From: a virus
Length of the DNA stretch: 41,365 bases
Virus record (IMG/VR): IMGVR_UViG_3300001533_000780
Span: 1-41,365 of that record
Direction: 5' to 3' (one strand)
Shown: positions 4,286-41,365 of the stretch, in pieces
How the letters are laid out: each line of letters opens with the position of its first letter
Position numbering within the stretch: the first letter of the stretch is position 1
Translations under genes and position numbers: made by a program
Notes under the pieces: generated by a model
What the model saw: the letters and a program-made list of their open reading frames with translations, nothing else
Databases searched by the model: none
What the model was told of the DNA's origin: nothing

Positions 4286-4939
4286 ATGAGTCTTTTTACA
4301 TATAAAAATAAATTGATGGTTTATAATGGAAAAATACAAACTACTTCTGGTTATTATACAGATAATTTAGTAACATGGTGGAAATTTGATGGCAATGCAG
4401 ATGATGAATATGGAAATTATGATGGTATTGTTCATGGTGCAACATATACTACTGATGGAAAAATAGATGGATGTTATTATTTTGATGGTAATGATGATTA
4501 TATAGATGTTGGTGATGCTGGAAAATATAGTAGTAATGATAATTTTAGTATTACTGCTTGGATTTTAGCGAATAATACTGGAAGATTTTTTAGTAGAAGA
4601 GGAAGTTATGAAATTCACCCACATCCATCTAGAGAAACATTATTATTTTATGATGGTTCATGGGAAGCTAGGGGAACAAAAAATATAGTTGACGGAGAAT
4701 GGCATCATATAGGAATAGTAATTGATAGTGATGTTTCAAAAGTAACTTTATATGTAGATGGTGAAGTAGATTTATCACCTACAGATGTTTCTTTTAGTGC
4801 TGGTGGAAGTGATGCTGAAATAGGATCATGGAATAATGGTAGTAATAATCAATTAGATGGAAAAATAGATGATTTTAGAATTTATGAATCTAAATTAACA
4901 GATAAAAATATTGAAACGATATATAATAACACTAAATAA
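4286..4939 (+). CDS. LamG/concanavalin-A-like lectin domain protein
   Basis: Most of this 217-aa protein is one Laminin_G_3/ConA-like jelly-roll domain: LVTWWKFDGNADDEYGN at about 28-44, CYYFDGNDDYIDVG near 63-76, FSITAWILA, GEWHHIGIVID, VTLYVDGE and a closing LDGKIDDFRIYESKLTD. These are characteristic strands of the fold, which usually binds carbohydrate. There is no signal peptide, as expected for a virion protein. It follows the fibre gene at 3702 with 2 nt spacing, which suggests a receptor-binding tip. Its stop overlaps the end of the convergent HD-hydrolase gene by 8 nt. Confidence 0.8.
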   Translation: MSLFTYKNKLMVYNGKIQTTSGYYTDNLVTWWKFDGNADDEYGNYDGIVHGATYTTDGKIDGCYYFDGNDDYIDVGDAGKYSSNDNFSITAWILANNTGRFFSRRGSYEIHPHPSRETLLFYDGSWEARGTKNIVDGEWHHIGIVIDSDVSKVTLYVDGEVDLSPTDVSFSAGGSDAEIGSWNNGSNNQLDGKIDDFRIYESKLTDKNIETIYNNTK

Positions 4940-5519
4940 TAGCAATTTTTATTTTTTCTAGTATTTCATTAACTAATTTTAATTGTGGTTCTGATAATTT
5001 TCTTTTTTCTTTTAATTCATTTAATATATTAAAAGTTTGTTTTGCATAATTTTTTGACCATTTCTTTTCTTTATCATTACCATATATATACATTTTAGGA
5101 ATATCTTGAACATTATGTAGTCTATCCGCTAATTTTATTATTAATGCCCAATTTGACATATTTAAAATTTTTTCACTTAAATATTTTTCTTTTCCTAATA
5201 ATTTTATTTTTTCTTCATCTGAAGTTAATTCTTTAACTAAAGAAGTTACTAATTCACCAAATTCTTTTTTTATTTCATTAAAAGTAATATTTTGATCTTC
5301 AACAACATCATGTAAATATGCTGCTGCTATAATATCTTTAATTCTTTTAGATTTTTTTATTTTTTCAACTATTTTTGCTACACTTTTAGGATGTGTAAAA
5401 TATTCAATTTTTTCACCTTTTTCTGTTTTACCTTTTCTATATTGACCTTTATGAACTTTTTTAGAAAATTCTTCAGCCTTTTTTATTTTATTTTCAAATA
5501 ATTTAAAATCAATTAACAT
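4932..5519 (-). CDS. HD-domain (p)ppGpp hydrolase, SpoT/MESH1-like, with CTS-like leader
   Basis: This 195-aa protein matches the hydrolase domain of RelA/SpoT enzymes and MESH1. It has H23 in HKGQYRKG, FTHP at 41-44, the metal-binding AAYLHDVVED at 66-75 (H70, D71, E74, D75) and KLADRLHNVQD at 129-139 (D132, N136). Only the hydrolase domain is present, with no synthetase, TGS or ACT domain, so it should remove pyrophosphate from (p)ppGpp and relieve the stringent response. Its leader MLIDFKLFENK contains L-F-E and matches five other leaders in this window. It is transcribed divergently from the 1024-aa structural gene. Activity on a different nucleotide cannot be excluded. Confidence 0.8.
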   Translation of the reverse strand: MLIDFKLFENKIKKAEEFSKKVHKGQYRKGKTEKGEKIEYFTHPKSVAKIVEKIKKSKRIKDIIAAAYLHDVVEDQNITFNEIKKEFGELVTSLVKELTSDEEKIKLLGKEKYLSEKILNMSNWALIIKLADRLHNVQDIPKMYIYGNDKEKKWSKNYAKQTFNILNELKEKRKLSEPQLKLVNEILEKIKIAII

Positions 5520-8650: not shown

Positions 8651-8668
8651 TAAATGAAAATTTAAATT

Positions 8669-8707
8669 AAAAAACCTGATGAATATTCATATTCATCAGG
8701 TTTTTTT
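8669..8707. terminator. Bidirectional terminator, 18-bp perfect stem
   Basis: AAAAAACCTGATGAATAT (8669-8686) is exactly complementary to 8689-8706 across a 2-nt loop, with A and T tracts at either side. It lies between the convergent structural gene (ending 8650) and the T9SS cargo gene (ending 8732), so it can stop transcription from both directions. Confidence 0.85.
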
Positions 8708-8731
8708 AGGAAAGAGCAACGGTTTAACGAA

Positions 8732-9520
8732 CTACTTATAAACAACTTTTATTCTTGTTGTTTCATTATCCCAATTATAAATTTTCAAAATATATGTTCC
8801 TTTTTTTAGATCAATAAAATTTATAATTTTAGTATATTCAGTTTTTAAAAGTCTACCATCTATTGAATAAACTTCTGTTTTATCATAATTTTCTAATTCA
8901 ACATTAACATAATCTGTTGTTGGATTAGGATAAACATTTACATCAATTTGATTTATTGTTGCTGATTTTGTTTCACAATCAACACTTTTTACACCATCAT
9001 CATAACCTGAATTATAAATAGAATCTGTATTTACACTTTCTACACCATTATTAAATGCATCTATTGAATCTTGTTTTGTATAATCACAAGTATAATCCAA
9101 CTGACCTTGATCATAACCATTGTTATATGCATCAATTGTGTCTTGTTCTACATAATCACAAGTAGTTTCAATTATTGGTGTTCTAGAAACATTAATTAAT
9201 TGTCCACCAAACACATTTGTTTTTATTCTAATTATATTTTCATAAAATATTAATAAGGTTTCACTATCATCATCTATTGTGGTATCAATAATGTATTCAA
9301 CAAATTTTAATGAATCATTAACATATTCTAAACAAGTAATGTTTATTTTTATATCCCCTTTTCCAAACAAAAAATCAAAAGTTATAGGTTCATAAAATAG
9401 ATATTCCCAATATGAAAATTCTTCATAATTAACACCAATAGCATCAACTTCACTAAGATCAAATCCAAATGTAGTTAAACTAAAAAACCCTAATATAATT
9501 CCTAAAATAATCTTTTTCAT
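8732..9520 (-). CDS. Secreted protein with T9SS C-terminal sorting domain
   Basis: The 262-aa protein begins with a classical signal peptide, MKKIILGIILGFFSLTTFG. Residues about 121-182 hold Cys-spaced repeats (CDYVEQDTIDAYNNGYDQGQ, then CDYTKQDSIDAFNNG). Residues 189-262 form a type A Por/T9SS sorting domain: VYPNPTTDYVNVEL, VYSIDGRLLK, IDLKKGTYILKIY and the C-terminal TTRIKVVYK. In Bacteroidota this domain directs export through the type IX system and is then cleaved for surface anchoring or release. I use the ATG at 9520 rather than an in-frame TTG at 9529. It has its own host-type promoter and a terminator, like an autonomous accessory gene. The function of the mature region is unknown. 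Confidence 0.85.
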   Translation of the reverse strand: MKKIILGIILGFFSLTTFGFDLSEVDAIGVNYEEFSYWEYLFYEPITFDFLFGKGDIKINITCLEYVNDSLKFVEYIIDTTIDDDSETLLIFYENIIRIKTNVFGGQLINVSRTPIIETTCDYVEQDTIDAYNNGYDQGQLDYTCDYTKQDSIDAFNNGVESVNTDSIYNSGYDDGVKSVDCETKSATINQIDVNVYPNPTTDYVNVELENYDKTEVYSIDGRLLKTEYTKIINFIDLKKGTYILKIYNWDNETTRIKVVYK

Positions 9521-9562
9521 AATTTTCAATTTTTAAATTTTACAATATATTTTTAATTAGTA

Positions 9563-9594
9563 CAAATATACAAAAAAATTTTTTAATATACAAA
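9563..9594 (-). promoter_or_regulatory. Bacteroidota-type housekeeping promoter for the T9SS cargo gene
   Basis: On the minus strand a -33 element TTTG (9591-9594) and a perfect -7 element TATATTTG (9563-9570, consensus TAnnTTTG) are separated by 20 nt, the arrangement recognised by the Bacteroidota primary sigma factor. The start codon lies about 43 nt further on. Phage-type TATATAAAAG motifs are absent here. Confidence 0.65.
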
Positions 9595-9657
9595 TTTTTT
9601 AACAAAAAAATTATTATAATAATTAATTTATTCTATCAATTAAGTCATCATCAATAT

Positions 9658-9726
9658 TTACATTAATATATTTTCATTAAATTTTTTAAATTGATTATAT
9701 GTTGTATAAGAATGAGTTGCTTTCAT
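9658..9726 (-). pseudogene. Truncated N-terminal remnant of a paralogue of the 2397-2972 gene
   Basis: A 22-codon frame reads MKATHSYTTYNQFKKFNE and then stops. It aligns residue by residue with the start of the unknown protein at 2972 (MKAIHLYTTYNQFKTFYNEN). Nothing recognisable of the remaining 170 residues is seen downstream. It is best explained as the stump left after a duplicate was deleted or replaced. Confidence 0.7.
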
Positions 9727-9776
9727 TAAAACTTAAATTATGTTTTATTATATAAAATAAAAATAAAATTGTTTTA

Positions 9777-10469
9777 ATGTTAAAGTTTAGTCAATTTAAA
9801 AGTGCATTTGAAGAAAGAAATAAATCTTTAATTTCAGAAGGTTTAATAAATTCAATATCTTATAGTTTATTTATTGATAAATTAGAAGATATCTTAAATA
9901 AAAATAATATGAATTATTTTAATGTAGTAAAATTTGATGATGGAATTAAATTAATTGATTTGAAACCTTTTAAAAATAAAAATTTTTATAATGATTTAAT
10001 TTCATTATTAAATTTATCTGGATATTATATATCTAATTATGAAAAAGATAAAAATAACATTAAATATGATAACATTGGAATAAAGACATATATGAATTCA
10101 AATAATTTAACTATTATATTTAATAAAAAATTTGATTATTTAGATTTTGGAATTAAAATAAAATTATTTCACGTTACTGATGAAAAATTTATAAATAAAA
10201 TAAGGAAAAATGGATTAATTCCAAAAACAAATAAAATGATTGATAATCATCCACATAGAATATATTTATTTGATAATATAAAAGATATGGATTTTTTTAT
10301 TGAACAAAAAATCAAATATGATAAAACATTTGAACCCAAGAAATTAGAAATTAATGTTAAATCTTTACCTAAATTAAAATTATATAAAGATCCAAAATAT
10401 CCTAATGTAGATGTATATTACACTTATGATAATATTCCATCATATTGTATTGATATATTAAAACAATAA
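9777..10469 (+). CDS. ADP-ribosyltransferase-fold (KptA/DarT-like) candidate with CTS-like leader
   Basis: The last third of this 230-aa protein has the layout of small ART-fold proteins. KLFHVTDEKFINKIRKNGLIPK (129-150, H132) resembles the first strand and helix that bind NAD. RIYLFDNIKDMDFFIEQ (161-177) and LEINVKSLPKLKLYKD follow, and the end is VYYTYDNIPSYCIDIL. Some relatives transfer ADP-ribose; others (KptA/Tpt1) remove RNA 2'-phosphate. The first 22 residues form a leader with a canonical-looking I-S-E/G site at 19-22, like T4 internal-protein propeptides. A broken second copy of its C-terminus lies just downstream. No search was possible, so the fold call is moderate. Confidence 0.5.
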   Translation: MLKFSQFKSAFEERNKSLISEGLINSISYSLFIDKLEDILNKNNMNYFNVVKFDDGIKLIDLKPFKNKNFYNDLISLLNLSGYYISNYEKDKNNIKYDNIGIKTYMNSNNLTIIFNKKFDYLDFGIKIKLFHVTDEKFINKIRKNGLIPKTNKMIDNHPHRIYLFDNIKDMDFFIEQKIKYDKTFEPKKLEINVKSLPKLKLYKDPKYPNVDVYYTYDNIPSYCIDILKQ

Positions 10470-10495
10470 AAGAATTAAAAAACAAAACTAAATTT

Positions 10496-10577
10496 TTTAA
10501 AGAACCTTATTATGAAAAGGGTTTATACTTATAATAATATTCATCCAAAATATATCACAAATATTCTTAATTATTAA
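10496..10577 (+). pseudogene. Frameshifted C-terminal remnant of a second ART-fold gene
   Basis: FKEPYYEK in one frame (10496-10519) and VYTYNNIHPKYITNILNY-stop in the next (10521-10577) together align with the end of the preceding gene (YKDPKYPN, VYYTYDNIPSYCIDIL). The frame change falls near 10520. An ATG at 10512 would give a 21-aa peptide, but homology indicates decay of a duplicate. The rest of 10470-10668 shows only A+T-rich sequence and the promoter motif at 10641. Confidence 0.6.
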
Positions 10578-10640
10578 GATTTAATTTTTTTTATATTTAA
10601 AAATGTAAATATAATTTTTATTTAAGTCATTTATATTTAA

Positions 10641-10650
10641 TATATAAAAG
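10641..10650 (+). promoter_or_regulatory. Putative phage promoter TATATAAAAG
   Basis: The motif lies 28 nt before the ATG of the 1609-aa structural gene. It is the best match to the shared phage motif in the window (compare 24907, which is identical). Confidence 0.5.
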
Positions 10651-10668
10651 AAATTTTAAATATATTTA

Positions 10669-17140: not shown

Positions 17141-17605
17141 ATGGAGAAATCTAAAATACAAGAAAAACAAGATAAAATAGAAATACTTGAAGCAGAATTA
17201 ATGGAAGAAAGAAAAGAATGGAATCAAATTATTTCAAAATTATCAAAAGATATTAAGAAAGATTTAAATTATTGTATGATTTTAGAATCCGAATCTGTAT
17301 CTAGAAGACAAGAAATAACAGAAATAATAGGTAAATATTCTTATAAGATAAATAAAGCAATGCCAGGAATAAAACAAACAAAAAAGAATTTATGGGAAAA
17401 TTATGCAACTAAATATCAATTAAAATTAAATTCAACAGAAAAGAAAATGTTTACTGAATCTGATTTAAGATATGCAGAATCACAAGTACAATCTTATAAA
17501 AATCATATTGATTTTTTTATAGAAACAAGAAAAACTATGGATCATATTATATGGTCTGTTAAAAATAAAATTCAATTATATAATATTACAGAAATGATGG
17601 GATAG
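17141..17605 (+). CDS. UvsY-like recombination mediator candidate
   Basis: This 154-aa, highly charged, helical protein has the size and C-terminal pattern of T4 UvsY (137 aa). FTESDLRYAESQVQ is followed by a long helix (HIDFFIETRKTMDHIIWSVKNKI). UvsY loads the UvsX recombinase on ssDNA coated with gp32. Support comes from synteny: T4 keeps uvsY and uvsW close together, and here a UvsW-type helicase is the next conserved gene, separated only by an endonuclease. Residues 1-45 form a coiled coil. The end overlaps the convergent endonuclease by 30 nt. Sequence identity is too low to be certain by eye. Confidence 0.5.
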   Translation: MEKSKIQEKQDKIEILEAELMEERKEWNQIISKLSKDIKKDLNYCMILESESVSRRQEITEIIGKYSYKINKAMPGIKQTKKNLWENYATKYQLKLNSTEKKMFTESDLRYAESQVQSYKNHIDFFIETRKTMDHIIWSVKNKIQLYNITEMMG

Positions 17606-19216
17606 CTTAAAAATTAAATATCCTGAATCATAAATTTTATAATTTTTATTAGTTTTATTATTATTAATAGTTTTTTGGTTATGTTTATTTATATAATAAA
17701 AATTTGGGATAGTTTTAAAAAGAAATTTCATATTTGATTTTAATAAATTTTTGTCTATATAATTTCTATCTATTTTTGAAATTATTTCAATTGGTTTATA
17801 TTTTTTAATGAAATAATTAAATAATTTTGAAAAATATTCTTTTACATTAATAAAATTTTTATTACAAAATTGATTTAAATAATATTTTCCTTTATAATCA
17901 CTTTTTGTAAAAGTCATAATAGATACCAATTCTTTTTTATAAAATAAACCTAATTTAATATAAGAATCTTTAAAACCATGAATATGATTATTATTTAAAA
18001 AATTTTTTATTTGTTCGTTATTTTTTAATTCTAATATTTTACATTCTATAGAATTTATTATTTTATTTTTATTTAATTTTTCTAAAATTATAGATTTAAT
18101 AATATCTTTTTTATAATTCCAATCATCTTCAAATATATGAATTAATTGAATTCCTTTCTTTTCACATAATTCTGTTTTATTTAAATGATAATTTTTTTCT
18201 TTTATTAAATCACTATGCCAATATAAACCATTGAATTCAAATGCTAAATTTAAATTAGGTAAATAAATATCTAATTCATAAGGAATAATTATTTTTCTAG
18301 ATGAAGTTATTATTTTTCCTTTATAATTTTCTTTTATAAAATTATAAACGTTTATTTCATCGTTTGATTTATAATAATGACCAATGGGATAACATATAGT
18401 ACAAATTTCTAAATTTTTTCTTGAATATCTATCTATTAATTGTTGGTATGATATATTATAATTTTTATTACATTTTTTACATTTTATTGTTATAATATCA
18501 TTATCAAAATCGACATTTATTATATTTAATTTAAATTTATTTTTTAAATTATTTATTTTGCTTTTCCTACTTTTTTCTTTAATTAAGGGATTACATAAAG
18601 TGCAACTTGTTTTATATTTTTTCAAATTAGTTTTTTTAATTTTTTCTTTTATTAATTCATTTTTTGGGGGAAATGAAAAACCATATCTTTTTATATTTGT
18701 TTTAATTCTTTTTGTAATTATATCATCTTTATGTTTTTTAAAATAAATATTTAATTTTTCTCTACATTCATTTGTTTCTAAATAGCATTTAAAACCATAT
18801 TTTTTTATATTTGTTTTTATTGATTTATTTTTTATATCTTGATTTTGTGAAGAATATTTTGTGCCATATTTTTCTATATTTGTTTTAATAGATTTATTTT
18901 TTAATTTATCGTTATGTAACGGAATTTTATAACCGAATCTTTTTAAATTTGTATTTTCTGTTTTTAATCTACTACATTTTTGTGAACAAGAATAATAATT
19001 ACCATTAGATATATTTTTAATATATTTATAATATGGTAGTTCTTTTTCTTTACCACAAATATCACATTTTACTTTAATTGAATAATGGGAATTTTTCTTT
19101 AAATCGTTTATTTTTATAATAAAGTAATTTTGATTTATTATTTTATAACCTTTTTCTAAAAAATAATTTTTATTTTTTGTTTTCGCACTTATTCTAATTT
19201 CTTTATTTAAAATCAT
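17576..19216 (-). CDS. Homing-type endonuclease, Hef/EDxHD-like with zinc-finger and repeat DNA-binding region
   Basis: In this 546-aa protein, residues 1-90 contain a Cys pair C51/C54 and C77/C81, a probable zinc ribbon. Residues 90-205 carry four or five repeats of the type IKTNIKKYGF, which look like small DNA-binding modules. A second Cys cluster lies at 246-275 (CKKCN, CTIC). The nuclease core is IPYELDIYLPNLNLAFEFNG (311-330) followed by YWHSD, with likely catalytic E314, D316, E327 and H334 as in EDxHD/Vsr-like enzymes. GIQLIHIFEDDW follows. It lies between the UvsY-like gene and uvsW and is probably a free-standing homing endonuclease. A broken relative lies on the far side of uvsW. 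Confidence 0.75.
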   Translation of the reverse strand: MILNKEIRISAKTKNKNYFLEKGYKIINQNYFIIKINDLKKNSHYSIKVKCDICGKEKELPYYKYIKNISNGNYYSCSQKCSRLKTENTNLKRFGYKIPLHNDKLKNKSIKTNIEKYGTKYSSQNQDIKNKSIKTNIKKYGFKCYLETNECREKLNIYFKKHKDDIITKRIKTNIKRYGFSFPPKNELIKEKIKKTNLKKYKTSCTLCNPLIKEKSRKSKINNLKNKFKLNIINVDFDNDIITIKCKKCNKNYNISYQQLIDRYSRKNLEICTICYPIGHYYKSNDEINVYNFIKENYKGKIITSSRKIIIPYELDIYLPNLNLAFEFNGLYWHSDLIKEKNYHLNKTELCEKKGIQLIHIFEDDWNYKKDIIKSIILEKLNKNKIINSIECKILELKNNEQIKNFLNNNHIHGFKDSYIKLGLFYKKELVSIMTFTKSDYKGKYYLNQFCNKNFINVKEYFSKLFNYFIKKYKPIEIISKIDRNYIDKNLLKSNMKFLFKTIPNFYYINKHNQKTINNNKTNKNYKIYDSGYLIFKLSHHFCNII

Positions 19217-19270: not shown

Positions 19271-20920
19271 ATGAAATTTAAAATAAATGAAGAAAAAACA
19301 AAATTAGTTTTAACAAAATCAAACACAGAAGAATATAATCAAATTAAAAGAATTTTAAATCCATATGTTGACGGCTATCGGTTTATGCCACGCTTCAAAA
19401 TGGGCGTTTGGAATGGTAAAATAGACTTTTTTAAAAATGGGTTTATTAATTTGGGTTTATGGAAAGTTGTATATGATTCTTGTAAAGAATATGGTTATAA
19501 ATTTAATATAGAAAATCCAGAATTATTTCCAAAAGAAAAATTAGATAAAAAAGAAATAGAAGATTTTTGTTTTGATTTTTTTAAAAATCATAGAATACAA
19601 GATAAAAAAGATAAAAAAGGAAATATTATTAAAGGTGAAAAATTTATGCCATATAGCCATCAAATTGATGCTATTTATAAAATTTTAAAATATAAATATG
19701 GTTTAGTAGAAATTGCAACTGCTGGTGGTAAATCATTAGTTATATCAACAATTATATTTTATATTTTAAAGAATATAAAACCAGATGCTAAATTTTTAAT
19801 TATTGTTCCAAATATTTCACTTGTTACTCAAATGTATGATGATATTTTAGATTATAATTTAGGTTTCAATAATGAAAATTTAAATCCACTTGACATAAAT
19901 TTATTAGAAATTATGTCAGATAAACCTAGAAAAGTTAGGGATAATAAAGAACCTAATATTATTATTGGAACATATCAATCTTTAGAAAAATTATCTTATA
20001 AATTTTTTAAACAATTTGATATGGTTGCAACAGATGAAGCTCATAGAGCAAAGGCAATTTCTATAAATAAAATTTTAACAAAAACATTTGGATATGCTAA
20101 TTATAGATTTGGTGTTACTGGTACTTTACCTGCTAAAAATTCTTCAAATAGATTAACAATAGAATCTTTAATGGGTCCAAATTTATTTTCAATAAAAGCT
20201 AAAAAATTACAAGATAAAGGATTAATAAGTCCTATTAAAATAAAATCATTAATGTTAAATTATGATGACTATGATTTTGCAAAAAATATTTATGCAATAA
20301 AAAAAAGAGGTGGTGGTAAACAGGCTTATCAATTAGAAAGAAAATATATTCATAATTCAGAAAAAAGAAAATATTTTATTGTAAAATTAATTAAAAAATT
20401 AAAAACTAATTCTTTAGTTTTATTTCATGCAGTACAACATGGTACTGATTTATATAATTTTTGTAGGGATAATATTCCTAATATAGATTTTTATTATGTT
20501 GACGGAAGTGTAAAAAGTGATAAAAGAGAATACATTAAAAAGCAGTTAGAAGAAACATCTTCTAAAAATATAAAAGTAGGTATATGTAGTTTTGGAACAT
20601 TTTCTACTGGAATAAACGTTAGGGCAATTAATAATATTATTTTTGTAGATTCATTTAAATCTGATCAAATTATTAGACAATCAATTGGTAGGGGGTTAAG
20701 ATTACATAAAGATAAAGTTTTATTGGTTGTTTATGATATTGTAGATATTTTTTCAAAAAAATATACAAATACATTATTACAACATTATAAATATCGTAGG
20801 GATAAAATTTATAAAGAACAAAAATTTGATTATGAAGAAATAAAAATATCTTTACCAGGAACAAAAGATTCAAGAAGAATTAAATTAAATAAATTAAATG
20901 ATAATAACAAAAAAAATTAA
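19271..20920 (+). CDS. uvsW: UvsW-type ATP-dependent helicase
   Basis: In this 549-aa superfamily 2 helicase, the N-terminal DNA-binding segment GYRFMPRFKMGVWNGKID (35-52) matches that of T4 UvsW. Helicase motifs are clear: Q-like YSHQIDAI (128-135), Walker A ATAGGKS (149-155), Walker B DEAH (255-258), motif III TGT (283-285) and motif VI QSIGRGLR (about 469-476). UvsW unwinds D-loops, R-loops and branched DNA and helps switch T4 from origin- to recombination-dependent replication. Length is slightly above the T4 protein because of a basic tail ending SRRIKLNKL plus seven residues. The last 23 nt overlap the start of an endonuclease gene. A short GC-richer patch (19370-19415) encodes the conserved GYRFMPRF block. 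Confidence 0.9.
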   Translation: MKFKINEEKTKLVLTKSNTEEYNQIKRILNPYVDGYRFMPRFKMGVWNGKIDFFKNGFINLGLWKVVYDSCKEYGYKFNIENPELFPKEKLDKKEIEDFCFDFFKNHRIQDKKDKKGNIIKGEKFMPYSHQIDAIYKILKYKYGLVEIATAGGKSLVISTIIFYILKNIKPDAKFLIIVPNISLVTQMYDDILDYNLGFNNENLNPLDINLLEIMSDKPRKVRDNKEPNIIIGTYQSLEKLSYKFFKQFDMVATDEAHRAKAISINKILTKTFGYANYRFGVTGTLPAKNSSNRLTIESLMGPNLFSIKAKKLQDKGLISPIKIKSLMLNYDDYDFAKNIYAIKKRGGGKQAYQLERKYIHNSEKRKYFIVKLIKKLKTNSLVLFHAVQHGTDLYNFCRDNIPNIDFYYVDGSVKSDKREYIKKQLEETSSKNIKVGICSFGTFSTGINVRAINNIIFVDSFKSDQIIRQSIGRGLRLHKDKVLLVVYDIVDIFSKKYTNTLLQHYKYRRDKIYKEQKFDYEEIKISLPGTKDSRRIKLNKLNDNNKKN

Positions 20921-22045
20921 AATAAATTCAAAAAGTAAAGATAAAAAATATTATATTTCTTTAGGATATAATGTTAAAAATGATTTTATTATAGATATAA
21001 AGGATTTAAAAAAAGGTAGTGGTAAAAAGATAAATGTTATATGTGATGTTTGTGGAAATGAAAAAATAATTGAATATAGAAGGTATATAAAAAATACTAA
21101 TAATTTAAAAGAAGATTATTGTTGTAGTAAAAAATGTTCTAATTTAAAAAGTGAAAAAAGATTAAAAGATAAATATGGTGTTATAAATGTATTTCAACTC
21201 AGTGAAATAAAAGAAAAATCTAAGGAAACTAAAAAAAGATTATATTTGAATCCTAATTTTACTAATATTGAAAAAAGGAAGAAAACTAATTTAAAAAAAT
21301 ATGGTTGTGAAGAATCTTTATCAGATAAAAATATAAGAAAAAAGATACGAAATACGTGTATAAATAAATATGGTGTAGATTCTGTTTTAAAAATTAATAA
21401 TATTAAAAAATCGCAGGAAGAAAAATCGAAAATAACTAAATTTGAAAAATCTAAAAATTATTATAAAGAAAAATATAATTTGAATTTAATTGATTTTGAT
21501 AATTTTTGTTATAAATTTAAATGTGAAAAAGGACATAATTATTTAATTAAAAAATCTATTTTAAAGAATAGATTAGCTCATTCTGTTCAAATATGTACAA
21601 TATGTAATCCTATTGGAATTTCATATATTTCGCAAGGTGAAAAAGAATTATTAAATTTTATAAAAAAATACATTAATAGTGTTGAATCTACAAATAGAAA
21701 TAAAATTCATCATATCATTTAGATATTTATTTACCTAAATTAAAAATAGCATTTGAATTTAATGGTATTTATTGGCATAATAATAAAAATAAAGAAAAAT
21801 ATTATCATAAAATAAAAACAGATTTATGTAAAGATAAAAATATTCGATTAATTCATATATGGGAAAATGATTGGTATGAAAAAAAAGATATTATTAAATC
21901 AATTATTTTAGAAAAAATAAATATAAATGAATATTATATATTAGAGGATTATTATATCAAAAAACTTAATAAAATTAAATTAGATAATTTTATTAATTTA
22001 AATTCTATTAAAGATTTTAATAGTGTTTTTGGTTATGGATTATAG
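20898..22045 (+). pseudogene. Frameshifted and truncated homing-type endonuclease
   Basis: The first 274 codons (20898-21722) are related to the 546-aa endonuclease at 17576: the same start (MIITKKIKINSKSKDKKYY), zinc-ribbon Cys pairs, NLKKYG repeats and the CTICNPIG cluster. The frame stops just where the nuclease core should begin. The core continues one frame away from about 21719 (LDIYLPKLKIAFEFNGIYWH, then IRLIHIWENDW) and ends at 22045. A one-base change between about 21700 and 21718 explains this. The C-terminal 150 residues of the family are missing, and the stop lies inside the left arm of a 35-bp inverted repeat. It overlaps uvsW by 23 nt. Confidence 0.75.
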
Positions 22046-39741: not shown

Positions 39742-39812
39742 AGCAAGCTGAAGGATTCGAACCTTCGTCTCTATATTGGAAATATAGCATCTTACCATTA
39801 GACCATTACCGC
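39742..39812 (-). tRNA. tRNA-Gly (UCC), with imperfect acceptor stem
   Basis: On the minus strand a 71-nt cloverleaf starts GCGGTAA. The D arm is GTCT-AATGGTA-AGAT, the anticodon stem CTATA/TATAG has loop TTTCCAA (anticodon UCC, U33 present), and the T arm is GAAGG-TTCGAAT-CCTTC. The discriminator is T and CCA is not encoded. Acceptor pairs 1-4 form (two by G-U), but pairs 5-7 (T-C, A-G, A-A) do not, so the tRNA may be degenerate. It would read the A-ending Gly codon GGA, which this genome uses often. Confidence 0.7.
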
Positions 39813-40940: not shown

Positions 40941-41365
40941 TTGAAAATAATAAAATATACTTATAAATTTAGGTTAAAACCTACTGAAGAACAGAAAATA
41001 CTTCTAAATAAACACTTTGGTTGTGTTAGGTGGTCTTATAACTATTTTCTAAATAAAAGAAAAGAAGAATATTCTTCTAATAATAAAACATTAAACTATA
41101 ATAAACAATCTAAATTATTAACTAATTTAAAGAAAGAAGAAGAAACTTCTTGGTTAAAAGAAGTAAATGCTCAAAGTCTTCAATATTCATTAAAATGTTT
41201 AGACCAAGCTTACCAAAATTTCTTTAAAAAAAGAAGTAAATTTCCTAGATTTAAATCAAAAAAACATAAAAATTCTTTTACAGTGCCTCAACACATAAAA
41301 AATGAAGGAAATAAAATAATTTTTCCTAAATTTAAAGAAGGTATAAGAATGGTTATGGAAAGAAA
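40941..41365 (+). CDS. tnpB: TnpB (IS605 OrfB) RNA-guided nuclease, N-terminal part
   Basis: The frame is open from a TTG at 40941 to the window edge (141 codons). The start YTYKFRLKPTEEQKILLNKH and then GCVRWSYNYFLNKRKEEY form the classic N-terminal domain of TnpB. The middle, WLKEVNAQSLQYSLKCLDQA followed by NFFKKRSKFPRFKSKKHKNS, is also diagnostic. TnpB is an omega-RNA-guided nuclease that keeps its element in place and is the ancestor type of Cas12. No ATG is available in frame; an upstream stop at 40923 limits the start. The RuvC residues lie beyond the window. Confidence 0.85.
   Translation, partial: MKIIKYTYKFRLKPTEEQKILLNKHFGCVRWSYNYFLNKRKEEYSSNNKTLNYNKQSKLLTNLKKEEETSWLKEVNAQSLQYSLKCLDQAYQNFFKKRSKFPRFKSKKHKNSFTVPQHIKNEGNKIIFPKFKEGIRMVMER

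Follow-up and report, generated by a model that had tools for sequence, protein, structure and literature searches.

Why would a phage carry, between two of its tail genes and on the opposite strand, a gene whose product ends in the sorting domain of a bacterial type IX secretion system (T9SS) cargo? The gene lies in an IMG/VR fragment, and the window referred to below is the whole stretch of DNA analysed, 41,365 nucleotides. We propose that it is a moron-like cargo gene that is transcribed by the host, and that its product is exported by the T9SS and alters the surface of the infected cell; we put the chance that this explanation holds as a whole at roughly three in four. The features on which the proposal is based are collected in Table 1.

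Table 1. Features of the cargo locus (positions in the window)
Feature	Position	Strand	Remarks
Flanking tail protein, 1025 aa	5573..8650	+	relatives: PAU gp264 and pT24 BPT24_178
Insert of 2,018 bases between two tail genes	8651..10668		tail genes adjacent in relatives
Putative bidirectional intrinsic terminator hairpin	8669..8706	both	17-pair stem, T-runs either side
Candidate T9SS type A cargo gene	8732..9520	-	262 aa, ATG at 9520
Predicted layout of cargo protein			signal peptide 1-19, acidic domain 20-120, Cys/NNG repeats 121-182, sorting domain 196-260
Region modelled as type A C-terminal sorting domain, residues 185-262	8735..8968	-	TIGR04183/PF18962 and model
Three short Cys/NNG repeats (Cys 121, 145, 182), linker-like	8975..9160	-	sequence
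Predicted Sec-type signal peptide, residues 1-19 (MKKIILGIILGFFSLTTFG)	9464..9520	-	sequence inspection and hydropathy
Candidate Bacteroidota sigma-A-type promoter, TTTG-N20-TATATTTG	9563..9594	-	match to published consensus
Second insert gene, 230 aa, no family	9777..10469	+	two homologues elsewhere in G006
Flanking tail protein, 1609 aa	10669..15498	+	adjoins the 1025-aa tail protein in relatives

Genomic context

The tail proteins of the window match those of the 634-735 kb Mahaphages, with 33-42% identity between the Mahaphage tail genes and the window, as well as those of the Lak phages and of the isolates PAU, pT24, PTm1, MaF61 and MA9V. The closest relative found was G006, an IMG/VR contig of 344,634 bases that has the same structural module and, in the first half of the tail gene, is 48% identical. 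Judged by the shared structural genes and the synteny with G006, the window is a fragment of a phage of the Mahaphage clade. Bacteroidetes have been predicted as the hosts of the largest Mahaphages (PMC7162821).

A sequence-only reading had described the gene as a self-contained unit inside a block of phage structural genes. This is borne out by the tail genes on both flanks and by synteny, which identifies an insert holding the cargo gene and one further gene. No more than ~80 bases separate the alignments of the two tail genes in LR745206, LR756501, LR756502 and G006, and the annotation of PAU and pT24 likewise has the two genes adjacent. The layout is moron-like because the insert splits tail genes that adjoin each other in relatives, and the insert of 2,018 bases, together with the homologues of the second gene elsewhere in G006, makes both inserted genes look accessory. 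On this layout we class the cargo gene as a moron-like accessory gene.

Several other loci of the window were noted in passing. The product of the second insert gene contains a HVTDEKFINKIRKNGLIPKT stretch reminiscent of ADP-ribosyltransferase or Tpt1-like folds, as an impression only. A DUF2827 protein adjoining a sulfotransferase (600-2394) is perhaps concerned with surface-glycan modification, and an HD_4 domain protein (4932-5519) has the domain of (p)ppGpp hydrolases. Two homing-endonuclease-like genes (17576-19216 and 20898-21722), with many related copies in G006, lie either side of a helicase gene; the start of an IS605 OrfB/TnpB-like gene (40941-41363) is cut by the contig end; and a minus-strand tRNA (39750-39805) was called by Rfam (46.8 bits) and is absent from the ARAGORN output.

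The predicted cargo protein

The TTG start listed at 9529 is an upstream extension of the cargo reading frame. The sequence-only reading had seen a signal peptide, Cys-containing repeats and a complete T9SS domain in the product, and all three were recovered, the signal peptide by inspection and hydropathy. It consists of KK, a hydrophobic core (residues 4-18, with a mean hydropathy of 2.3) and a T-x-G site. Export as a lipoprotein was ruled out, as the lipobox Cys is absent; the Cys residues are at positions 63, 121, 145 and 182.

The search with TIGR04183 that had been proposed gave 36.8 bits (E 2.9e-9) against a cut-off of 23, aligning residues 196-260 with positions 1-70 of the 72 in the profile, and PF18962 gave 39.4 bits against a cut-off of 27. 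The domain is at the extreme C-terminus and has VYPNPTTD, a central G, GTY, a VVYK end and a basic tail. The cargo was aligned with 60 further sorting domains, of which 57 came from bacterial genome contigs and three from viral contigs. YPNPT, D, the central G and a Tyr close to the C-terminus do not vary in this alignment; for YPNPT the conservation partly reflects how the domains were picked, as YPNPTTD-type patterns had served to seed the scan. A mixed alignment of six domains was too diverse to be used as a scan profile. Given a sorting-domain alignment, AlphaFold predicted a confident Ig-like beta-sandwich for the modelled region (pLDDT 83); the full-length protein predicted from its single sequence was unusable (pLDDT 36). 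For the modelled domain, VIA-align placed T9SS substrate domains in its first five ranks, with Z scores of 8.0-8.5 to the FspA, NucA, RemA, mirolase and RemZ domains; four of the five come from structures of SprA translocon complexes. The first three rows from Foldseek are also T9SS substrate domains, with no row of the output reaching E 0.001. As the alignment used for modelling included known sorting domains, this test of the fold depends in part on the family assignment.

Ig-like folds are frequent in phage structural proteins and the gene lies between tail genes, so the product could instead be a virion protein, such as a tail decoration or fibre, with a C-terminal domain that merely resembles that of T9SS substrates. 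We regard this as scarcely credible given the signal peptide, the separate promoter and terminator on the opposite strand, a gene that is not conserved along with the tail module, and a TIGR04183 score above cut-off with all motifs present.

Profile searches gave no family for residues 20-120 and no enzyme or lectin family anywhere in the cargo protein. No close homologues of the whole protein were found in viral_contigs or genome_contigs, and the phages collection gave weak matches to its C-terminal part only. Residues 20-190 had no homologue in 20 Bacteroidota genomes, in a search run without a positive control, and chance-level matches only in 395 Bacteroidota genomes (best per-genome E 0.0036). 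One candidate homologue of the repeat region (L147) was set aside, its sequence on reading looking unrelated.

Other phages likewise gave no homologue of the N-terminal part, and the codon use of the gene is slightly atypical, resembling that of the homing endonucleases. Both points would fit a gene that was acquired from a host and has no role in the phage, or an artefact of the contig, but we consider this very unlikely, as the frame of 262 codons and its signals are intact and curated complete genomes hold similar cargos. The GC3 of the gene (0.069) is inside the range of the other genes of the phage (0.034-0.098), a value that speaks against contamination and against capture in the very recent past; together with synteny it marks the gene as phage-resident. 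Contamination was ruled out on these two grounds and on the presence of cargos in curated complete genomes.

Transcription signals of the cargo gene

The promoter of the form TTTG-N20-TAnnTTTG that had been proposed as host-type is a perfect match, at 9594-9563, to the Bacteroidota -33/-7 consensus TTTG / TAHHTTTG (PMC6847099). Its TTTG is at 9594-9591 and, after a 20-nt spacer, TATATTTG is at 9570-9563, ending 42 nt upstream of the ATG. Transcription would be expected to start at ~9558, giving a leader of 38 nt in which A occupies -3, -6, -12 and -13, positions at which it favours initiation in F. johnsoniae; because the DNA is so A-rich, this is weak evidence.

The cargo gene is the only gene of the window with a perfect match upstream. 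It could be argued that this is chance in A+T-rich DNA and that the gene is under phage-directed transcription, since 0.86 perfect matches are expected by chance anywhere in the window and, in G006, the nearest relative, the motif is upstream of just 3 of 456 genes, with a perfect match at 1 of 403. We think this unlikely. The match is on the correct strand at the correct distance, the chance of a perfect match in an upstream region of the same composition is ~1.5%, and perfect matches also precede the cargo genes of LR745206 and LR756504. Moreover, the motif exceeds its reversed control three- to fivefold in three Mahaphages (68 v 23 in LR745206, 83 v 21 in LR756502 and 110 v 21 in LR756504), with no such enrichment in the Lak phages. 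Host-type promoters thus seem to be in wide use in part of the clade and not peculiar to this cargo gene. The match at the cargo gene is above chance, without being overwhelming alone.

Perfect matches precede 3 of the 15 sorting-domain genes on phage contigs, among which the cargo of the window is counted, versus 4 of 487 other genes (Fisher p 0.0007, with a background that leaves out the window genes). With one mismatch or none the figures are 6/15 and 47/526 (p 0.0017); both backgrounds are counts rounded from fractions, come largely from one phage and are non-independent. There is thus moderate support only for sorting-domain genes being richer in promoter matches than other genes.

The bidirectional terminator of the sequence-only reading was likewise found, as a hairpin that starts 25 nt past the cargo stop codon and is common to the plus-strand tail gene. 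From its sequence it could end the transcripts of both.

Sorting domains in related phages

When run over whole records, TIGR04183 scored above cut-off in five of five non-Lak Mahaphage records tested from the phages collection (LR745206, LR756501, LR756502, LR756504 and LR756500). It also did so in G006 and in contigs of 270 kb and 231 kb, for which the terminase match is weak proof of a phage, as that family also matches bacterial genomes. None was found over the whole records of four Lak phages or a 673 kb relative, or over those of the isolates PAU, PTm1, pT24, MaF61 and MA9V-1. The trait is therefore not essential, since isolate relatives of T9SS-bearing hosts are without such cargos. Sorting domains are also present in MT836839 and MT836089, two short 'Bacteriophage sp.' records from the gut; as neither gave a terminase match, both may be bacterial, and we discounted them.

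Most cargos of the relatives start with a signal-peptide-like stretch and differ in their N-terminal parts, which carry LamG (G006), Fib_succ_major (LR756501), a propeller repeat (LR756504) or no family. One type A domain (L014, LR756501:654254-654469) is located in the middle of a 446-aa protein, before Fib_succ_major, and not at its C-terminus. Type B domains (TIGR04131) were above cut-off in LR745206 (three) and LR756502 (three), all but one of them in frames of 732-1675 aa, and the very large type B proteins L149-L152 of these two phages are repetitive and adhesin-like in the stretches read. The PorP/SprF shuttle (TIGR03519) had no match in any phage searched, and none in the control. It is conceivable, at slightly less than an even chance, that non-Lak Mahaphages, the largest phages known, routinely export several small type A and very large, adhesin-like type B proteins through the host T9SS and so rebuild the surface of the infected cell.

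A model for export and function

In our model, host sigma-A RNA polymerase would transcribe the cargo gene from its own promoter and stop at the hairpin common to the tail gene. The Sec machinery would carry the protein into the periplasm and the host SprA/PorV translocon would take up its type A C-terminal domain, after which the protein would be anchored on the surface of the infected cell or released. The acidic N-terminal domain, set off by the Cys/NNG linker, may then alter the cell surface. For export by the T9SS, a type A domain is both required and enough by itself (PMC10202324), and such domains lead to static surface anchoring or release (PMC12618676). We infer a T9SS-positive host, transcription by host polymerase and export; the function at the surface is a conjecture, as searches with the N-terminal part gave no homologue.

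Superinfection exclusion is our leading guess for this function, ahead of adhesion or glycan binding, although taken by itself we would call it doubtful. Phage-encoded surface proteins have been proposed to affect susceptibility to other phages (PMC7162821). A substantial possibility, if one we lean against, is that the protein is exported by the T9SS but acts in the medium, or in glycan binding or adhesion, and not against phages. Type A domains can release as well as anchor their proteins (PMC12618676), the cargos of Cryophage include an endoglucanase and a glycoside hydrolase (PMC7468147) and the LamG domain in one relative's cargo is lectin-like, but this cargo matches no enzyme or lectin family. 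If the protein is exported, giant phages would be using the type IX machine of the host, presumably altering the cell surface before lysis. With cargos in every non-Lak Mahaphage record tested, mostly with differing N-termini, control of the Bacteroidota surface by phages becomes directly testable in laboratory Flavobacterium.

Comparison with known systems

The cargo gene resembles phage morons in having its own promoter and terminator on the opposite strand and in being inserted between genes that are contiguous in relatives. Classical morons are known from prophages, and the likeness here is one of gene layout alone. Its product has the signal peptide, the C-terminal Ig-like domain and the conserved motifs of the type A substrates FspA, NucA, RemA and RgpB; these are bacterial, whereas here the gene is a phage gene and the N-terminus has no family.

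Our literature search found no paper joining Mahaphages with type IX secretion and, for T9SS and superinfection in flavophages, nothing directly relevant; the word 'secretion' is absent from the main text of the huge-phage paper (PMC7162821). The sequence-only reading had held that phage-encoded T9SS cargos are few. This view is weakened by the five Mahaphage records above and by reports from 2019 and 2020 (PMC6949934; PMC7468147). Cryophage also has type A sorting-domain genes, which are in variable islands; Bellas et al. (2020; PMC7468147) suggest that it commandeers the secretion system of the host and that the cargos act in superinfection exclusion. It differs in not being a Mahaphage and in its cargos, an endoglucanase, a GH39 and a PA14-domain protein, compared with an N-terminus without family here (PMC7468147). 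The BACON-bearing gut phages likewise have sorting-domain proteins, which adjoin Bacteroidetes-phage head genes, but they belong to another lineage and the BACON domain is absent here (PMC6949934). Phage T9SS cargos as such are thus already known from Cryophage (2020) and the BACON-bearing phages (2019), and the new part is the regularity of such cargos, type B included, in the non-Lak Mahaphages.
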